This document shows positions 8,933-16,056 of a DNA stretch of 64,000 nt, in pieces. A program made the translations under genes and the position numbers. Origin of the DNA: Roseococcus suduntuyensis. GTDB taxonomy: Bacteria; Pseudomonadota; Alphaproteobacteria; Acetobacterales; Acetobacteraceae. Where the stretch lies: contig NZ_JACIDJ010000005.1 in the NCBI RefSeq assembly GCF_014196305.1, positions 62,001 through 126,000 of the forward strand. The letters run 5' to 3'. Numbering within the stretch: position 1 is the first letter of the stretch; the number at the start of each line of letters is the position of its first letter. The notes under the pieces are model-generated. The model ran no database searches. It saw only the letters and a program-made list of their open reading frames with translations, and was not told the DNA's origin.

Positions 8933-8980
8933 ATGATGGGGCGACTCGGGCAATCGGCGGGGGTTTCGGGGGCGTGCTGA
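8933..8980 (+). CDS. 15-codon upstream reading frame overlapping the hyfB-like start
   Basis: The frame MMGRLGQSAGVSGAC has an excellent ribosome-binding site (TGGAGGA) just before ATG 8933, and its TGA at 8978-8980 overlaps the start region of the next gene, whose GTG is at 8974. The hyfB-like GTG itself has only weak Shine-Dalgarno sequence. The likely role is translational coupling: ribosomes loaded at 8933 terminate next to GTG 8974 and reinitiate. Nothing shows that the peptide itself is functional, and the product resembles no known leader. Confidence 0.4.
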   Translation: MMGRLGQSAGVSGAC

Positions 8981-10971
8981 CGCTTCTCGGCCTCGGCTTG
9001 CTCGCGCTGGCGGTGCTGGCGGGGCTGGGGGCCGCGGGGCTGGGACGGCGGTTGGTGCCGCTGGGTGCCGCGGCGGTCGCGGCCGTGCTGGGCGCCGTGG
9101 CCGTGGCCACGCTGGCGCTGGGGCCGGTCGAGGAGGCCGTTCTCGCCCTCGGCCCGCCCTGGGGGCCGGCGCGCGTGGCGCTGGATGCGCTCTCGGCCTG
9201 GTTCCTGCTGGTGCTGGCGGTGGTGGCGCTGCCCGCTGCCCTCTTCGCTGCCGCAACGGGGCCGTCCAGCCGGGCGGAGGCCGCGGCCTTCCCGCTCTTT
9301 CTCGCCGCCATGGTGCTGGTGCTGCTGGCGGCCGACGCCTTCACCCTGCTGCTGGGCTTCGAGGTCATGTCTCTCGCCTCCTGGGCCCTGGTGGCGGCGC
9401 GGCACCCGGCCGGGCGCGGACGGCGCGCGGCGCGGCTCTATTTCGGCTTCGCGGCCTTCTCAGGCCTCTGCCTCATCGCGGGCTTCGCTTTGCTCTCGGC
9501 GCCCGGCATGGGCTTTTCCGAGATGCGCGCGGCCCCGCCCGAGGGCTGGCGCGGCACGCTGGCCCTGGTGCTGATCCTGCTGGGGGCGGGGTCCAAGGCG
9601 GGGCTGCTGCCCTTCCACCTCTGGCTGCCGCTGGCCCACCCGGCCGCCGCCACGCCCGTCTCGGCGCTGATGTCGGGCGCCATGGTGAAGATCGCGCTCT
9701 ATGTGCTGGTGCGCGCCCTGTTCGACCTGGCGGGCGTGGCGCAGCCGGGCTGGTGGGGCGCGCCATTGGTGGTGCTGGGGGCCGCCACGGCGCTGTGGGG
9801 CGCCATCCGCGCCAATGTCGAGACCGACATCAAGGCCATCCTGGCCTGCTCCACGCTGGAGAATGTGGGGCTGATCACGCTGGCGCTGGGGCTTGCCCTG
9901 GTGTTCCGGGGGGCGGACCTGGCGCCGCTGGCCGCCCTGGCGCTGTCCGCCGCGCTGCTGCACACGCTGGTGCATGCGGGGTTCAAGGGGCTGCTGTTCC
10001 TCGTGGCGGGCGCGGTGGCCGAGCAGGCGGGCAGCCGCGACCCCGACCGGCTGGGCGGGCTGATCCACCGCATGCCCTGGGTGGCGGGGCTGGCCATGCT
10101 GGGCGCGGCCTCCGCCGCCGCGCTGCCGCCCTTCTCGGGCTTCGCCAGCGAATGGCTGGTGTTGCAGGCGCTGATCCAGAGCTGGCGGGTGGCGGAATTG
10201 CCGGTGCAACTGCTCTCGGCGGCGGCGCTGGTCACGGCGGGGATGGCGCTGGCCCTGGCGGCGGCGGCCATGCTGCGCTTCGTGGGGCTTGTTTTCCTGG
10301 GCCGGCCGCGCACCCCGCGCGCGGCGGGCGCGCTGGATGCCTCGGGGCTGATGCGCGCAGCGCTGGTGGTGGCGGGGGCGGTCTGTGCCGCGCTGGCGTT
10401 GCTGGCCGCGCCGGCGTTGGGCCTCGCGGGCGGCATCGTGACCGGGTTGCTGGGCGAGGGCGCGGCCCCGCCCATCTCCGGGCTGGACCTCATTCTGGGC
10501 GAGGCGGGCGCCCGCTACGCCCCCTGGGCCGTCACGGCGCTGCTGGCGGGGCTGACCCTGGCGCTGTGGTATGGGCTGCACCGCAAGGGCGCGCCCGAAC
10601 CTCGGCGCGGCCCCGCCTGGGATTGCGGCTTCATGCCCCCGCCGGCCGACCTGCCCTTCGGCGACCCGCTGACTCAGCCCAGCGCCGCCGGTGCGGCCCA
10701 GCCCATCCGCCGCGCCTTGGGCAGGCTGGCGCTGGCGCAGCGCGAGACGCACCACCCCGCCACCCCCGGCAGCACCGTCCCAGCGCGGCTGCGCGTCGAG
10801 GCGCGGGATCATGGCTTTGTCGCCTTGCTCTGGCCGCTGGGCCGGCTGCGGCGCCTGGCCGGGCACCAGGCGGAGCGGCTGCGTGGGCTTCCGCTCTCGG
10901 CCTATCTGGCGCTGGCGCTGGGCACACTGGTGCTGCTGCTGGCGCTGCTGGCCTGGGGAGCGGTGGCATGA
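8974..10971 (+). CDS. HyfB-like antiporter subunit of a hydrogenase-4/complex-I-like complex
   Basis: A 665-residue multi-helix membrane protein of the NuoL/M/N-HyfB proton-conducting family. It contains the channel helices with key lysines and glutamates (LLLGFEVMSLASWALVAARH, GAGSKAGLLPFHLWLPLAHP, VSALMSGAMVKIALYVLVR, TDIKAILACSTLENVGLI) and a hydrophilic C-terminal extension with PRRGPAWDCGF, a stretch characteristic of HyfB/HycC. It would form a proton channel in the membrane arm. The start is GTG 8974. It is followed by five further subunit genes, all overlapping or nearly so, through 16056. Confidence 0.9.
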   Translation: MLTLLGLGLLALAVLAGLGAAGLGRRLVPLGAAAVAAVLGAVAVATLALGPVEEAVLALGPPWGPARVALDALSAWFLLVLAVVALPAALFAAATGPSSRAEAAAFPLFLAAMVLVLLAADAFTLLLGFEVMSLASWALVAARHPAGRGRRAARLYFGFAAFSGLCLIAGFALLSAPGMGFSEMRAAPPEGWRGTLALVLILLGAGSKAGLLPFHLWLPLAHPAAATPVSALMSGAMVKIALYVLVRALFDLAGVAQPGWWGAPLVVLGAATALWGAIRANVETDIKAILACSTLENVGLITLALGLALVFRGADLAPLAALALSAALLHTLVHAGFKGLLFLVAGAVAEQAGSRDPDRLGGLIHRMPWVAGLAMLGAASAAALPPFSGFASEWLVLQALIQSWRVAELPVQLLSAAALVTAGMALALAAAAMLRFVGLVFLGRPRTPRAAGALDASGLMRAALVVAGAVCAALALLAAPALGLAGGIVTGLLGEGAAPPISGLDLILGEAGARYAPWAVTALLAGLTLALWYGLHRKGAPEPRRGPAWDCGFMPPPADLPFGDPLTQPSAAGAAQPIRRALGRLALAQRETHHPATPGSTVPARLRVEARDHGFVALLWPLGRLRRLAGHQAERLRGLPLSAYLALALGTLVLLLALLAWGAVA

Positions 10972-11930
10972 TGGCCACCTTCCTCGCGCTGCTGACGCAG
11001 ATCCTGCACGCCGCCCTCATCCTTGCCGCGGCGCCGCTGGTGGTGGGCGGGGTGCGCTGGGTGAAGGCGCGGCTGCTGGGCCGGCGCGGACCGCACCCCC
11101 TCCAGCCCCTGCGCGACCTGTTGAAGCTGCTGCGCAAGCGCCCGGTGCTGGCCGATGGATCGAGCGTCGTCACCCGCGCCACCCCCTATGTGGCCCTGGC
11201 GGCGACGCTGCTGGCCGCGCTGCTGGTGCCGGGCTTCGCGCAGGGCATGGCGCTGGCGCCGGTCGCGGACCTCATCCTCATCGCGGGGCTGCTGGCGCTG
11301 GCGCGGATGGCGCTGGCGCTGGCTGGGCATGACGCGGGAACCGCCTTCGGGGGCCTGGGTGCCGCGCGCGAGATGACCTTCGCCGCCTTCGCCGAACCCG
11401 CCCTGCTGGCCTCCGTGCTGGTGCTGGCGGTGCTGGCGGGCAGTTCCAACCTCGACGCCATCGCCGCCTTGTTCCGCGAGGGCAGCCTGGGCATCCGTGT
11501 CTCCCTGCTGTTCGTGTTGATGGCGCTGATGGCCGTGGCGCTGGCCGAGAATGCCCGTGTGCCGGTGGACAACCCGGCCACCCACCTGGAACTGACCATG
11601 GTCCATGAGGCCATGCTGCTGGAGGCCTCGGGCCGGCACCTCGCCCTGTGGGAGGCGCAGGCGGCGTTGAAGCTGACGGTCTGGCTCGCGCTGCTGGCGG
11701 CGATCTTCCTGCCCTTCGGCGCGGCGCCGGCCGGCGCGGGGCCGATTGGCTGGGTGGTGGGGCTGGTGCTGTGGGGCGCGAAGATGGCGCTGCTGGCCGT
11801 GGCGCTGGCGGTCTTCGAGACGGCCATCGCCAAGATGCGCGTCTTCCGCGTACCGGAATTCCTGGGGGCCGCGCTGCTGCTGGCGCTGCTGGCGGCGGCC
11901 CTTGTCTTTATCACGACAGGACTTGCGTGA
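10968..11930 (+). CDS. HyfC-like (NuoH/HycD family) membrane subunit
   Basis: A 320-residue, roughly 8-helix homologue of NuoH/HycD, the subunit that connects the peripheral and membrane arms. Features include GGVRWVKARLLGRRGPHPLQ, LRDLLKLLRKRPV, and the acidic loop AENARVPVDNPATHLELTMVHE, which in NuoH carries charged residues of the quinone/proton pathway. ATG 10968 overlaps the upstream stop (ATGATG, so translation could also start one codon later). The last codons ITTGLA are duplicated just downstream in a tiny frame that bridges to the next gene. Confidence 0.9.
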   Translation: MMATFLALLTQILHAALILAAAPLVVGGVRWVKARLLGRRGPHPLQPLRDLLKLLRKRPVLADGSSVVTRATPYVALAATLLAALLVPGFAQGMALAPVADLILIAGLLALARMALALAGHDAGTAFGGLGAAREMTFAAFAEPALLASVLVLAVLAGSSNLDAIAALFREGSLGIRVSLLFVLMALMAVALAENARVPVDNPATHLELTMVHEAMLLEASGRHLALWEAQAALKLTVWLALLAAIFLPFGAAPAGAGPIGWVVGLVLWGAKMALLAVALAVFETAIAKMRVFRVPEFLGAALLLALLAAALVFITTGLA

Positions 11931-11956
11931 TGCTTATCACGACGGGCCTCGCATGA
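11930..11956 (+). CDS. 8-codon mini-frame duplicating the HyfC C-terminus
   Basis: ATG 11930 overlaps the TGA of the hyfC-like gene (TGATG), and the mini-frame's own TGA (11954-11956) overlaps the ATG of the hyfE-like gene (ATGA). It encodes MLITTGLA. The 23-base stretch 11934-11956 is a diverged copy of 11908-11930. All four differences are third-position synonymous changes, so ITTGLA is kept. It most simply acts as a stepping stone for coupled translation from hyfC to hyfE. Whether the peptide has any role is unknown. Confidence 0.45.
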   Translation: MLITTGLA

Positions 11957-12624
11957 CCGGCCCCGGGGACATCGCCTATGACGTGGCGCATCTGTTGGGC
12001 GGGGCCATGCTGCTGGTCGGCTTCGTCATGCTGGGCCAGCGGCGAATCGGCGCGCTGATTGCCGCACTCGCCGCGCAGGGTGTGTTGCTGGCGCTGGCGG
12101 CCTTTTGGCAGGGCCATGTCCAGGCGGCGCCGCAACTCTATCTGACGGGGCTGATCGCGCTGCTGGCCAAGGGCATCGCCATCCCTCTGGTGCTGCACCG
12201 CCTGGCGGGCGAACTGCCGCCGCCGCTCCGCACCGAGGCGCCGGGCCGGATGGGCGCGGGGCTGGTGCTGGGGGTGGGGCTGGTGGGGCTGGCCATGTTG
12301 GTCGTCGTGCCGGCCACCACGGGGGCAGGCGCCTTGGCGCGGGTGGACCTCTCCATGGCGCTGTCCATCCTGCTGCTGGGGGCGCTGATGATGGTGACGC
12401 GGCGCAGTGCCCTGGCCCATGTGGCGGGGCTTCTGACCATCGAGAACGGGCTGATCCTGGCCGCGGTGGGCGTGGCCGGCATGCCGCTGGTGGTGGAGCT
12501 TTCGGCGGGCGGCCTGGTGCTGGTGGTGGCGCTGATCGCGGGTGTTTTCGCGCGGCAGATGCGCGAACGCTTCGCCAGCCTCGATCCGGGCGTGCTGGAC
12601 CGCCACCGGGGGGAAGGGCGATGA
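11953..12624 (+). CDS. HyfE-like membrane subunit
   Basis: A 223-residue membrane protein of the HyfE family, whose helices resemble NuoK (LLTIENGLILAAVG with the conserved glutamate, then GGLVLVVALIAGVFARQMRERF). It would sit in the membrane arm next to the antiporter subunits. The start ATG at 11953 overlaps the stop of the 8-codon mini-frame, and its TGA overlaps the next ATG. HyfE occurs in hydrogenase-4 and Ehr-type complexes but not in hydrogenase-3, which supports the assignment of the cluster. Confidence 0.88.
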   Translation: MTGPGDIAYDVAHLLGGAMLLVGFVMLGQRRIGALIAALAAQGVLLALAAFWQGHVQAAPQLYLTGLIALLAKGIAIPLVLHRLAGELPPPLRTEAPGRMGAGLVLGVGLVGLAMLVVVPATTGAGALARVDLSMALSILLLGALMMVTRRSALAHVAGLLTIENGLILAAVGVAGMPLVVELSAGGLVLVVALIAGVFARQMRERFASLDPGVLDRHRGEGR

Positions 12625-14048
12625 GCCTCGCCACCGCCCTGATTCTGTTGCCGCTGCTGGGGGCCGCGCTGCTGGCCGCGCTGCCGCGCGTGGCGCCGCT
12701 GCTGAATATCGCCATCTCAGCCGGTTCGCTGGTGCTGGCGCTGCTGCTGCTGGCCGGGCCCCTGCCGCAGGGCGAGGGCTGGCTGCGGGCCGATGCGCTC
12801 TCGGTCTCGCTGGTGGTGCTGGCGGGAATCGTGGGGCTCGGCACCGCCGTCTTCTCCTGGCAGGACATCCGGGACGAGGGCTTCGACACCGCGCGCACCC
12901 GCTTCTACCACGCGGCCTTCCAGGGCTTCATGGCCACGCATTTCCTGGCGCTGCTGTCCGACAATCTCGGCATCATGTGGGTGGCGATCGAGGCGGGCAC
13001 GCTCGCCTGTGTGCTGATGGTGGGGCTGCACCGCACGCCCGCCGCCATCGAGGCCGCGTGGAAGTTCTTCATCCTCTGCGGTTTCGGCATCGCGCTCGCC
13101 TTGTTCGGCATCATCGTGCTGGCGCTGGCGGCCGCCCCGCATTTGCCCCATGGCGACCTGCGGCTTTCGGCCACGGCGCTGCGCGAAATCGCGCCGCTGG
13201 CCGAACCCGGTCTGCTCAACCTCGCCTTCGTCTTCCTGCTGGTGGGCTTCGGCACCAAGGCGGGGTTGGTGCCGCTGCATTCCTGGCTGCCCGACGCCCA
13301 TGCCGAGGGCCCCACCCCCATCGCCGCCGTGCTGTCGGGGCTGCTGCTGAACAGCGCCATGCTGGGCATCCTGCGCGGCGAGGCCATCGTGGCGGCGCAC
13401 CCGGGCTCCTGGGCGCCGGGCGGTTTCCTGATCGGCATGGGGCTGGCTTCGCTGCTGCTGGCGGGCGTCACGCTTTGGCGGCGGCGCGACGCCAAGCGCC
13501 TCTTCGGCTGGAGCAGCATCGAGCATATGGGCATCGCGGCCATCGCCTTCGGTGTGGGCGGGCCGGCCGGGAACATGGCGGGCATCCTGCACCTCTGGGG
13601 CCATTCCCTGCTGAAATCGGCGGCCTTCTTCGCCATCGGGCGTGCGGCAAGGCTCAAGGGCGGGCAGCGCATGGACCAGATCGGCGGGCTGGCGCGCAGC
13701 CACCCCGCACTGGGCTGGGGGCTGGTGCTGGTGATGGCGGGGCTGGCGGGGCTGCCGCCGGCCAGCCTCTTCGCGTCGGAATGGATGCTGGCGGCGGCCC
13801 TGGGCCGTGAGGCGCCCTGGCTGCTGCTGCCCTATGTGGCGGGGCTGCTGGTGGCCGCACTCGCCCTGCTGCACGCCATGCAGCGTCTTTGCCTGGGCCC
13901 AGCCACGCCGGATGTGGCGCCCGGCCCCGCGGGCTGGGCCACGCTGGGGCCCATCTGGTGCAACCTGGTGCTGGCCGTGATCCTCGCCATCGCCCTGCCG
14001 GCCCCCCTGCGCGCCCTGCTGCGCGACGCCGCACAGGTGCTGGGATGA
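12621..14048 (+). CDS. HyfF-like antiporter subunit (NuoL/M/N family)
   Basis: A 475-residue antiporter-like subunit. The conserved transport motifs are present: MWVAIEAGTLACVLMVGLHR (acidic residue in the first channel half), GFGTKAGLVPLHSWLPDAHAE with the key lysine, PTPIAAVLSGLLLNSAM, and FGWSSIEHMGIAAIAFGVG. It would form a second proton channel beside the HyfB-like subunit. The ATG overlaps the HyfE stop and the stop overlaps the large-subunit ATG. E. coli hydrogenase-4 has three such subunits (HyfB, D, F); only two are encoded here. Confidence 0.9.
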   Translation: MSLATALILLPLLGAALLAALPRVAPLLNIAISAGSLVLALLLLAGPLPQGEGWLRADALSVSLVVLAGIVGLGTAVFSWQDIRDEGFDTARTRFYHAAFQGFMATHFLALLSDNLGIMWVAIEAGTLACVLMVGLHRTPAAIEAAWKFFILCGFGIALALFGIIVLALAAAPHLPHGDLRLSATALREIAPLAEPGLLNLAFVFLLVGFGTKAGLVPLHSWLPDAHAEGPTPIAAVLSGLLLNSAMLGILRGEAIVAAHPGSWAPGGFLIGMGLASLLLAGVTLWRRRDAKRLFGWSSIEHMGIAAIAFGVGGPAGNMAGILHLWGHSLLKSAAFFAIGRAARLKGGQRMDQIGGLARSHPALGWGLVLVMAGLAGLPPASLFASEWMLAAALGREAPWLLLPYVAGLLVAALALLHAMQRLCLGPATPDVAPGPAGWATLGPIWCNLVLAVILAIALPAPLRALLRDAAQVLG

Positions 14049-15538
14049 GGGCGGCCAAGGTGCTGGAATCGGGCGTCATCGCCCCCTGCATGCCCTGGCC
14101 GCGCACGGTGCTGGACGCCGCCGCCTGGCTGCGCCTGCGCGAGGCATTGGCAAGCGACCCGAGCCTCGACCTGCTGGCGCTGTGGGGCGAGCCCGGCTTC
14201 GTCCATGCCGCCTTCCTCGACATCGCGGCCCCCCGCCTGTGGCTGGCCAGCACGGCGGTGGAGGGCGGCCGCGTGCCGGCGCTCTCGCCCGTGCGGCCCG
14301 GGGCCGCGCTGTTCGAACGCGCCCTGCATGATCTCTGGGGCATCACGGCCGAGGGCGCGGTGGACGCCCGCCCCTGGCTCGACCATGGCCGCTGGCCGGT
14401 GCGCGCGCCGCTCTCGCCCCGCCCGCTCAGCCACAGCCCCGCCGCCGACCCCATGGAATTCCTGCCCGCCGAGGGCGCGGGCGTGCACCAGATCCCGGTC
14501 GGCCCCATCCATGCCGGGATCATCGAGCCCGGGCATTTCCGCTTCCATGTCCAGGGCGAGACCATCGTGAGGCTGGAGGCGCGGCTGGGCTGGACGCACA
14601 AGGGCACGCTGTCGCTGCTGCAGGGCAAGTCGCCGCGCGTGGCGGCACGCTTCGCGGCGCGCCTTTCGGGCGACAGCACCGTGGCGCATTCGCTGGCTTT
14701 CGCCCGTGCCGCCGAGGCCGCTTCGGGCGCCGAGGCCCCGCCCCGCGCCACGGCTCTGCGCGCCGTGATGCTGGAGCTGGAGCGGCTGCACAACCACCTG
14801 AACGACATGGGCTTCATCGCCAATGACGCCGCCTTCGCGCCGCTGCACGCCGAGGCCGGGCTGCTGCGCGAGGCCCTGCTGCGCGCCCAGCACCAGGCCT
14901 TCGGCCACCGGCTGATGATGGACCGCGTGGTGCCGGGCGGTGTGGCCATGGACCTTTCGCCCGAGGGCCAGGCCGCCATCGAGGCCGCGCTGGCGGGTGC
15001 CGCCGCCGGCCTGCCGCGCCTGCTGCGGATGTATGAAGGCCATGCCAGCCTGCAGGACCGCGTGCTGGCGACCGGCCTCCTCCCGCCCGCGCTGGTCGCC
15101 GCTTTCGCGCCGGGGGGCGTGGTGGGCCGCGCCGCCGGCCGCGCCTTCGACGCGCGGATGCTGACGGGCGAGATGGCGGACTGCCCCACCCAGCCCGGCG
15201 CCGACGTGGATGCCCGCTGGCGCCAGCGCCATGCCGAGGCGCTGGCCGCCATCGCGCGCGTGCGGACCCTGCTGGCCGGCCTGCCGCCCGGCCCGCTGAC
15301 CGTTTCGCTGGGCCATGGCGAGGCGCGCGAAGGGGTGGCGCTGGTCGAGGGCTTCCGCGGCGAATGCCTGGCCTGGCTCGCGCTGGATGAGGGCGGGCTG
15401 ATCCGCGCGGCCTTCCTGCGCGACCCCTCCTGGCTGCACTGGCCGCTGCTGGAGGCGGCCGTCATCGGCAACATCGTGGCCGACTTCCCCCTCATCAACA
15501 AAAGCTTCAACGCGAGCTACAGCGGGGTGGATCTCTGA
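14045..15538 (+). CDS. HyfG-like fused NuoC/NuoD-type large subunit lacking nickel ligands
   Basis: A 497-residue protein with an N-terminal NuoC-like domain (to about residue 125, ALHDLWGITAEG) and a C-terminal NuoD/[NiFe]-hydrogenase large-subunit domain (VGPIHAGIIEPGHFRF, ARLGWTHKG, LELERLHNHLNDMG, DRVVPGGVA). The N-terminal CxxC that binds nickel in hydrogenases is replaced by Ser208-Gly-Asp-Ser211 (ARLSGDSTVAHS). The C-terminal DPCxxC is replaced by a terminal NKSFNASYSGVDL stretch. It therefore cannot bind a NiFe centre and is not a hydrogenase; it fits the Ehr (energy-converting hydrogenase-related) group, for which no reaction is established to my knowledge. Confidence 0.9.
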   Translation: MRAAKVLESGVIAPCMPWPRTVLDAAAWLRLREALASDPSLDLLALWGEPGFVHAAFLDIAAPRLWLASTAVEGGRVPALSPVRPGAALFERALHDLWGITAEGAVDARPWLDHGRWPVRAPLSPRPLSHSPAADPMEFLPAEGAGVHQIPVGPIHAGIIEPGHFRFHVQGETIVRLEARLGWTHKGTLSLLQGKSPRVAARFAARLSGDSTVAHSLAFARAAEAASGAEAPPRATALRAVMLELERLHNHLNDMGFIANDAAFAPLHAEAGLLREALLRAQHQAFGHRLMMDRVVPGGVAMDLSPEGQAAIEAALAGAAAGLPRLLRMYEGHASLQDRVLATGLLPPALVAAFAPGGVVGRAAGRAFDARMLTGEMADCPTQPGADVDARWRQRHAEALAAIARVRTLLAGLPPGPLTVSLGHGEAREGVALVEGFRGECLAWLALDEGGLIRAAFLRDPSWLHWPLLEAAVIGNIVADFPLINKSFNASYSGVDL

Positions 15539-16056
15539 TGCTCTGGCCCCGCCTTGCCCGGAACCTGCTGCGTCCGCCCGTGACCGACGCGCCCGTGGTG
15601 CCGCTGCCCGAGGTGGTGGCCGCGCTGCGCGAGCGCATGGAGGCGGCCTCCATGCGGCGGCTCGGCCGTTCGCTCGCCATCCGCCAGGTGGATGCGGGCA
15701 GCTGCAATGGCTGCGAGCTGGAGATCAACGCGCTCCAGAACGTGGCGCATGACCTGGAGCGCTTCGGGTTGCGTTTCGTGGCCTCGCCCCGCCATGCCGA
15801 TGTGCTGCTGGTGACCGGCCCGCTCACGCGCAACATGGCCGAGGCCCTGCTGCGCGCCCGCGCCGCCACGCCGGAGCCGGTGTGGATCGTGGCGGCCGGC
15901 GATTGCGCGGTGGATGGCGGTGTCTTCAAGGGCAGCTATGCGGTGCTGGGCGGCGTCGAGGCGGTGCTGATGCCCGACCTCATCATCCCCGGCTGCCCTC
16001 CGAGCCCGACCGAGCTGCTGGAAGGCCTGGTCGCCCTGGTCGAAGCGAACGCCTGA
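15538..16056 (+). CDS. HyfI/NuoB-like [4Fe-4S] small subunit
   Basis: A 172-residue soluble subunit of the NuoB/HyfI family. All four ligands of the proximal [4Fe-4S] cluster are present: Cys56 and Cys59 in GSCNGCELE, Cys123 in AGDCAVDGG and Cys153 in PGCPPSP. So electron transfer to the large subunit is retained even though that subunit lacks nickel ligands. It is the last gene of the operon; ATG 15538 overlaps the upstream TGA. No NuoI/HyfH or HyfA ferredoxin-like gene follows, so the electron donor or acceptor is not encoded here. Confidence 0.93.
   Translation: MLWPRLARNLLRPPVTDAPVVPLPEVVAALRERMEAASMRRLGRSLAIRQVDAGSCNGCELEINALQNVAHDLERFGLRFVASPRHADVLLVTGPLTRNMAEALLRARAATPEPVWIVAAGDCAVDGGVFKGSYAVLGGVEAVLMPDLIIPGCPPSPTELLEGLVALVEANA

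Follow-up and report, generated by a model that had tools for sequence, protein, structure and literature searches.

Results

Positions 8974 to 16056 of the window, by which we mean the whole 64-kb stretch of Roseococcus suduntuyensis DNA analysed here, carry six genes, hyfB-C-E-F-G-I, which were re-called from the sequence and are all intact, co-directional and tightly packed. Judged by its sequence, the encoded complex is a member of the known Ehr group (energy-converting or Ech hydrogenase-related complexes), which has no assigned reaction. All six genes lie on the forward strand. The first, hyfB (8974..10971), has a GTG start and encodes an antiporter-like, NuoL-type proton-channel subunit of 665 aa; it is followed by hyfC (10968..11930; 320 aa, a NuoH-like membrane anchor), hyfE (11953..12624; 223 aa, a small membrane subunit), hyfF (12621..14048; 475 aa, an antiporter-like proton-channel subunit of NuoM/N type), hyfG (14045..15538; 497 aa, a fused 30-kDa and 49-kDa-type large subunit without nickel ligands) and hyfI (15538..16056; 172 aa, a NuoB-like small subunit with cysteines C56, C59, C123 and C153). 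A sequence-only reading of the same DNA had described six overlapping genes; the homologues and their order stand, but not the overlaps throughout, since neighbours overlap by 4 nt (B/C, E/F and F/G) or 1 nt (G/I) and a gap of 22 nt separates hyfC from hyfE.

Pfam family matches of these proteins are far above chance, with Proton_antipo_M in HyfB (3e-45) and HyfF (1e-45), NADHdh in HyfC (2e-31), Complex1_49kDa (6e-16) plus Complex1_30kDa (6e-6) in HyfG and Oxidored_q6 in HyfI (5e-29). HyfE has no Pfam match and was identified by NCBIfam, where it matches the hydrogenase-4 membrane-subunit model at 4e-15, under the model cut-off. NCBIfam also supports HyfB, HyfC and HyfF, the hydrogenase-4 models matching HyfB (9e-155) and HyfF (6e-146) under their equivalog cut-offs, while HyfG was further assigned by alignment to HycE and by Foldseek, and HyfI by conservation.

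We then looked for an electron-donor module using E. coli proteins (for NuoI, the first 150 aa) and the source genome's own NuoI as tblastn queries. At 1e-5, the 64-kb window contained no match to HyfA, HyfH, HyfJ, HycB, HycF, NuoE, NuoF, NuoG, NuoI, HypD or HypE. As HyfD is indistinguishable from HyfB and HyfF by tblastn, its absence rests on the gene order, which leaves no room for it. The sequence-only reading was thus right that HyfD, HyfA and a NuoI/HyfH-type subunit are missing.

HyfG contains neither the CxxC nor the DPCxxC motif of group 4 NiFe hydrogenases. When aligned with E. coli HycE, residues 206-211, RLSGDS (14660..14677, forward strand), occupy the position of the hydrogenase CxxC, and the C-terminal residues 485-497, NKSFNASYSGVDL (15497..15535, forward strand), that of DPCxxC. 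The four nickel-ligand cysteines correspond to S208, S211, S491 and G494, which bears out the earlier assignment of a non-hydrogenase large subunit. Residues Y87 (Nqo4) and H38, which we take to be the quinone tyrosine and histidine of the complex I 49-kDa subunit, align with G209 and I160. With the nickel ligands and the quinone Tyr/His all replaced, neither known active site is present in HyfG.

Conservation was assessed in canonical relatives on open reading frames (ORFs) with more than 85% coverage of the corresponding protein from the window, which left 78 of 81 rows for G, 65 for I, 63 for B, 60 for C, 69 for E and 73 for F. Seventeen of 25 inspected HyfG positions, picked after the alignment had been viewed, are invariant in 78/78 rows, namely H156, I160, E161, H185, R206, G209, D210, H251, D254, R438, G439, N485, K486, S487, N489, Y492 and G494. 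Near-invariant are S208 (77), H164 (77), S491 (76), N250 (73) and S211 (68, with A in 6 and T in 4); positions 215, 436 and 490 vary. R-x-SGD (206-210) together with NKSxN (485-489) makes a signature, both parts of which occur in 74/78 rows and at least one in 78/78. Both parts also occur in 17 of 20 rows taken outside the class (identity 36.7-44.4%), and at least one part in all 20. The signature does not occur in E. coli HycE, HyfG or NuoCD, nor in the hydrogenase-type rows L225-L231, L144 and L145. Most relatives have cysteine at two positions that are I484 and A490 in the window HyfG.

In HyfI, each of the four [4Fe-4S] cysteines is present in 65/65 canonical rows, as expected of the [4Fe-4S] small subunit proposed earlier. 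Taken together with the 17 invariant HyfG positions, this indicates that the HyfG-HyfI head is constrained. In the membrane arm we counted charged residues that are the same in at least 80% of rows. HyfC keeps 32/32 of these (60 rows), HyfB 27/33 (63 rows), including E130, K208, H215, K239, H330, H334, K338 and E393, HyfE 16/22 (69 rows), including K73, E164 and E182, and HyfF 27/32 (73 rows), including E124, K148, K213, H220, H227, E229, E301, H324, H328, K332 and E387. From these residues the window complex is predicted to pump.

The sequence-only reading would have been overturned by a phylogeny placing HyfG within functional NiFe hydrogenases. In a tree of 46 chosen rows (IQ-TREE, LG+C20; unrooted, with a long-branch warning from the tool, and leaving out the published Ehr sequences of Geobacter and Nitrospira) all 36 Ehr-type and derived rows were split from 8 hydrogenases and 2 NuoD by a branch of length 1.65 (100/100). 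The DPCxxC-bearing rows L144 and L145 group with NuoD and not with Hyc/Hyf (97/86). Foldseek returned HycE of formate hydrogenlyase (7z0s_E, TMq 0.85) as the best match of HyfG, with E. coli NuoCD next.

The source genome (4.14 Mb, 17 contigs, 100% complete) has one match to PF00374, which is the window HyfG itself. HypD was not found in a search that did not extend genome-wide to the other hyp genes, so neither a second nickel-ligating large subunit nor this maturation gene has turned up elsewhere to overturn the earlier reading. That reading had noted the lack of a formate dehydrogenase at the locus; this holds, but the absence is broader, since no Mo-type formate dehydrogenase alpha subunit was detected at 1e-50 in the entire genome. 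Nor was a 2-oxoacid:ferredoxin oxidoreductase (POR) found above threshold, POR_N scoring 19.9 bits against a cut-off of 27. The single NuoI (contig C6, position 229149) adjoins a NuoH (C6, 228139), the one NuoH-type gene besides HyfC, and is therefore part of complex I.

Relatives of the operon are frequent. In the class, HyfG has matches at 1e-20 in 37/385 genomes, 32 of them, the source included, with at least 45% identity; the class alignment took in 30 of the 37. Within the Acetobacteraceae, 184/200 genomes match at 1e-12, NuoD and divergent forms included, and 122/200 at 1e-80 or better (hand count). A scan of species genomes returned at least 587 stretches, 582 of them with a HyfG relative, and the best 80 of the 582 were followed up as named loci. 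Their hosts include Roseomonas, Paracraurococcus, Siccirubricoccus, Bradyrhizobium, Mesorhizobium, Rhizobium, Azospirillum, Rhodopseudomonas, Acidocella, Thiobacillus, Gallionella and others. All six genes pass the 85% coverage test in 43/60 long-enough loci; 16 miss one gene and 1 misses two. HyfA, HyfH, HycB, NuoI, NuoE, NuoF and NuoG were found in 0/80 (tblastn, 1e-5, formate dehydrogenase not among the queries), 44 of these loci having at least 9 kb on both sides. The same search gave HypD and HypE matches in L087 and L092 and a weak HycF-like match in L049. With no donor-type gene beside the 80 named relatives, the six-gene form is the rule, and the missing donor module is not peculiar to the window operon.

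Ehr-like genes also occur without complex I. NuoI (1e-20) is missing from 26/200 family genomes (20 listed, 6 inferred from their absence from the positive list). Fourteen of the NuoI-less Acetobacteraceae genomes are at least 97% complete (G256, G416, G437, G443, G451, G465, G482, G499, G511, G516, G528, G538, G550 and G560); 0/14 has a NuoH-type complex I gene, and 13/14 carry a hyfG-like gene, G256 having neither NuoI nor hyfG. Among the 13 carriers, 11 have the derived form described below and two (G465 and G528) the canonical one. These two (loci L219 and L218) are Acetobacteraceae of one genus with 4.6-5.1 Mb genomes. Outside the family, the alphaproteobacterial genome G170 (0.9 Mb, 100% complete; G+C 33.5% over the sequence read) carries the whole set of six on two contig ends (L125 12458-17388 and L130 12568-14681), with a galactarate/altronate dehydratase gene (uronate degradation) nearby. 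In G170 no NuoH, formate dehydrogenase, POR or HypD was found, and its one NuoI match (4e-4) stays short of the cut-off. Judging by the persistence of Ehr-like genes in these genomes, Ehr seems not to depend on complex I.

A derived operon (loci L205-L215, L223, L224 and L141-L143) is carried by numerous family genomes of 1.9-4 Mb, many of them lacking complex I. Because of the size of these genomes, and as Gluconobacter oxydans lacks complex I (PMC3751514), the hosts are probably acetic acid bacteria. In the HyfG tree the derived clade falls within the canonical Ehr of the family (98/100), at the end of a long branch, and its HyfG has the signature motifs in 0/18 loci. Over 16 of the 18 operons (L143 and L217 being omitted for want of four clean hydrophobic ORFs) the conserved charged residues number 4 in F, 0 in B, 3 in C and 1 in E, compared with 32, 33, 32 and 22 in the canonical sets, a drop partly due to the clade's higher divergence alone. 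Since the assignment of L216 is doubtful, we repeated the count on the 11 complex-I-less derived operons, which exclude it, and found 8, 7, 10 and 5 for F, B, C and E, respectively; none of the four subunits has a lysine conserved in at least 80% of rows, and B and F have no such glutamate either. Homology of the derived subunits to the canonical ones is supported by hhalign probabilities of 97.8 (C), 93.6 (B), 100 (G) and 100 (I), whereas for F (14) and E (4) it rests on gene order and size.

The four HyfI cysteines, in contrast, are kept in 15/16 derived HyfI found. The sole case of loss is L143 (6317-7003), where the fourth cluster cysteine is gone (GSPP for GCPP). In L205-L207, HyfI lies some kilobases away from hyfG. 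The ratio of nonsynonymous to synonymous substitution rates (dN/dS) is 0.05-0.19 for all six derived genes in four pairs from two genera, and 0.08-0.22 where computable in two more divergent, partly saturated pairs. Within the two genera, therefore, the derived operon is under strong purifying selection. The [4Fe-4S] site in a membrane-attached scaffold is the most persistent feature across the canonical and derived forms; the constrained pocket and the proton channels are features of the canonical form. We found no literature, as far as the available texts go and with few subscription journals covered, that joins Ehr with Acetobacteraceae or describes the derived clade.

As for the surroundings of the operon, a small helix-turn-helix gene of XRE type lies directly upstream of hyfB in 30/61 named loci with enough upstream sequence (e.g. 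L078, 4545-4886), with a second copy downstream in some loci; none adjoins hyfB in the window. When neighbour genes, of which only some were named, were clustered among themselves, this was the only strongly recurrent neighbour in the 80 named loci, and a conserved partner gene next to the operon was rejected. A spermidine-synthase-like gene (one cluster, named by annotation) occurs in 6 loci and a SulP-like gene in 2, too rarely for either to carry meaning. In the window, a divergent TRAP transporter (DctM by Pfam) lies upstream, the gene between DctM and the operon being read as DctQ-like, and a small ORF downstream has no match in the named loci. A 15-codon ORF at 8933-8980, preceded by GGAGGA, has its stop inside the hyfB start (GTGCTGA) and could be a leader coupled to hyfB translation. 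Most of the plasmid copies examined contain this set of six, annotated as subunits of hydrogenase 4, of formate hydrogenlyase or of NADH-quinone oxidoreductase; the A. thermophilum plasmid annotation lists no hyfE, and in the Rhodococcus copy a NuoB-like gene comes first. A Variovorax plasmid (L114, 1-1233 and 4645-11829) carries two related clusters next to each other; the 4Fe-4S small subunit of one is longer, and the two may represent different types of the complex.

Discussion

The Ehr group was reportedly defined in a comparative paper of 2013. Pyrococcus Mbx/Mbs resembles the window operon in combining a large subunit devoid of nickel with an antiporter arm; Mbs also has a NuoI-like ferredoxin subunit, whereas the window operon has none. 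Published Ehr complexes (PMC10284858, PMC10432482 and PMC7894505) have a complex I/hydrogenase-4-like membrane arm, a small [4Fe-4S] subunit and a large subunit without nickel ligands. The window operon likewise combines the lack of CxxC and a [4Fe-4S] small subunit with co-operonic Mrp/NuoL-like, NuoH-like and HyfE-like subunits. According to PMC10284858, the function of the Nitrospira complexes 'remains unknown', and PMC7894505 says of Ehr in Geobacter, whose cluster spans GSU0739-45, that its role 'has never been investigated'; both agree with the earlier labels 'Ehr-type' and 'no assigned reaction'. Ammonia-oxidising archaea carry Ehr as well (PMC10432482), and PMC6349859 counts Pyrococcus Mbx, for which a reaction is proposed, among the hydrogenase-related complexes. 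Within the literature covered, which included few subscription journals and some texts in part, we found no bacterial Ehr mutant, purification or assigned reaction.

E. coli Hyf/Hyc shares with the window operon the gene order B-C-E-F-G-I and the subunit types, and HycE is the best sequence and structural match of HyfG; however, HyfA, HyfD, HyfH, HyfJ and the NiFe ligands are missing from the operon, and HypD and the formate dehydrogenase alpha subunit from the source genome. Complex I has homologous NuoB, NuoC/D, NuoH and antiporter-like subunits, yet the operon lacks NuoE, F, G and I, and HyfG, with its exchanged quinone residues, sits on a separate branch.

We propose that the window encodes an intact canonical Ehr complex which, as an autonomous ion pump without nickel, is driven by redox chemistry and receives its electrons from a soluble carrier, a reading to which we give a probability of about 0.45. 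What is seen is a membrane arm of HyfB, HyfC, HyfE and HyfF with most of its conserved charges, and a HyfG-HyfI head with room for one [4Fe-4S] cluster and, at the NiFe position of hydrogenases, a strictly conserved pocket that lacks the cysteine ligands; donor, acceptor, direction and pumping we infer from sequence features. The carrier, a ferredoxin, flavodoxin or flavoprotein that transfers one electron, would dock directly on the face of HyfI that is otherwise covered by NuoI/HyfH. The electron would move to the HyfI cluster and then to a substrate, most likely a quinone, in a HyfG pocket formed by E161, R206-S208-G209-D210, R438 and N485-K486-S487-N489, and the resulting movement may drive proton pumping as a coupled gain. 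The redox reaction is probably downhill, since the derived clade keeps the cluster with no conserved lysine in the channels, as though it could do without coupling. Neither H2 nor formate dehydrogenase, ferredoxin made by POR or complex I appears to be required by Ehr.

Several observations weigh against this proposal. With G209 and I160 in place of the quinone Tyr/His, a quinone would need a different binding mode. HyfF K254 is replaced by E and six conserved HyfB charges are lost, making the window member slightly off-consensus. The AlphaFold model, to which 41 named rows correspond, has low confidence around the HyfG pocket (137-182 and 475-497) and gives no guide to its geometry. Because the derived clade lacks the pocket motifs, it may use another acceptor and perhaps have another role, and it bears on the window complex indirectly. 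Moreover, the mean pairwise identity of its membrane subunits is 0.33-0.50, compared with 0.57-0.66 in canonical sets, and in L216 and L217, two of the 18 derived loci, no HyfI was found in a 19-kb stretch.

Other readings explain part of the data. It is unlikely that the complex runs in reverse, the proton motive force driving electrons uphill from quinol or NADPH to a low-potential ferredoxin in an aerobe that lacks another source. The pump residues are mostly intact, and with no POR, formate dehydrogenase alpha or HypD over threshold in the source genome little low-potential reductant would be expected there; the derived clade, however, retains the cluster and purifying selection without conserved channel lysines, which makes an obligatory drive by proton motive force improbable in those hosts. 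That the membrane arm is a non-redox ion transporter with a structural or sensory head would fit the lack of a nearby donor gene, a pocket without metal ligands and an XRE-type gene as the only recurrent neighbour in the named loci. We nevertheless regard this as rather unlikely, for the cluster cysteines are found in 65/65 canonical HyfI and in 15/16 derived ones despite near-total change elsewhere. A cryptic hydrogenase-4, whose models are the best matches of HyfB, HyfE and HyfF, is contradicted by the missing nickel ligands (no CxxC, no DPCxxC), the missing HypD and a tree position apart from the hydrogenases, and can practically be set aside.

The remaining candidates concern the feeder. 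Since the source genome has a complex I with NuoI, Ehr might borrow its NADH module or NuoI, but Ehr-like genes persist in 13/14 near-complete family genomes without NuoI (11 derived, 2 canonical) and in G170, and such borrowing is very unlikely. A soluble formate dehydrogenase was proposed as part of an FDH-Ehr complex in Riflemargulisbacteria (PMC6349859) and is hinted at for Geobacter by a higher abundance of Ehr proteins with formate (PMC7894505). In alphaproteobacterial genomes, TIGR01591 matches (1e-50) occur in 28/32 with Ehr versus 29/48 without, and HypD in 8/32 versus 2/48; the Ehr-negative set is rich in small genomes, so neither co-occurrence allows a positive inference, and as formate dehydrogenase is common in large genomes anyway, its association with Ehr is weak. 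No formate dehydrogenase was detected in the source genome and two others of its genus, a third (G504) having sub-cut-off matches only, nor in G043, G170 or 10/12 complex-I-less Ehr-bearing family genomes at least 99% complete. Barring a non-homologous enzyme, formate dehydrogenase as an obligate partner is refuted in the source genome (no alpha subunit at 1e-50), and we hold this feeder to be highly improbable for the window complex.

Beyond the redox-driven pump proposed for the window, Ehr may be a self-sufficient respiratory entry complex, frequent among Acetobacteraceae and able to outlive complex I, whose catalysis depends on one surface-fed [4Fe-4S] cluster; in lineages like the acetic acid bacteria an uncoupled form would have kept the cluster and scaffold but lost the pocket and proton channels. 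This wider view is possible, though on balance unlikely.

To conclude, Ehr complexes are widespread (at least 587 stretches, 582 with a HyfG relative), and no reaction is known for those of bacteria. Our comparison weighs against four obligate donors, namely H2, formate dehydrogenase, POR-derived ferredoxin and the NADH module of complex I; new here are this case, the conserved non-metal pocket, the survival of Ehr without complex I and the stripped clade. Natural experiments on the Ehr reaction are offered by genomes that lack complex I and by the derived clade, in which channel lysines are not conserved.

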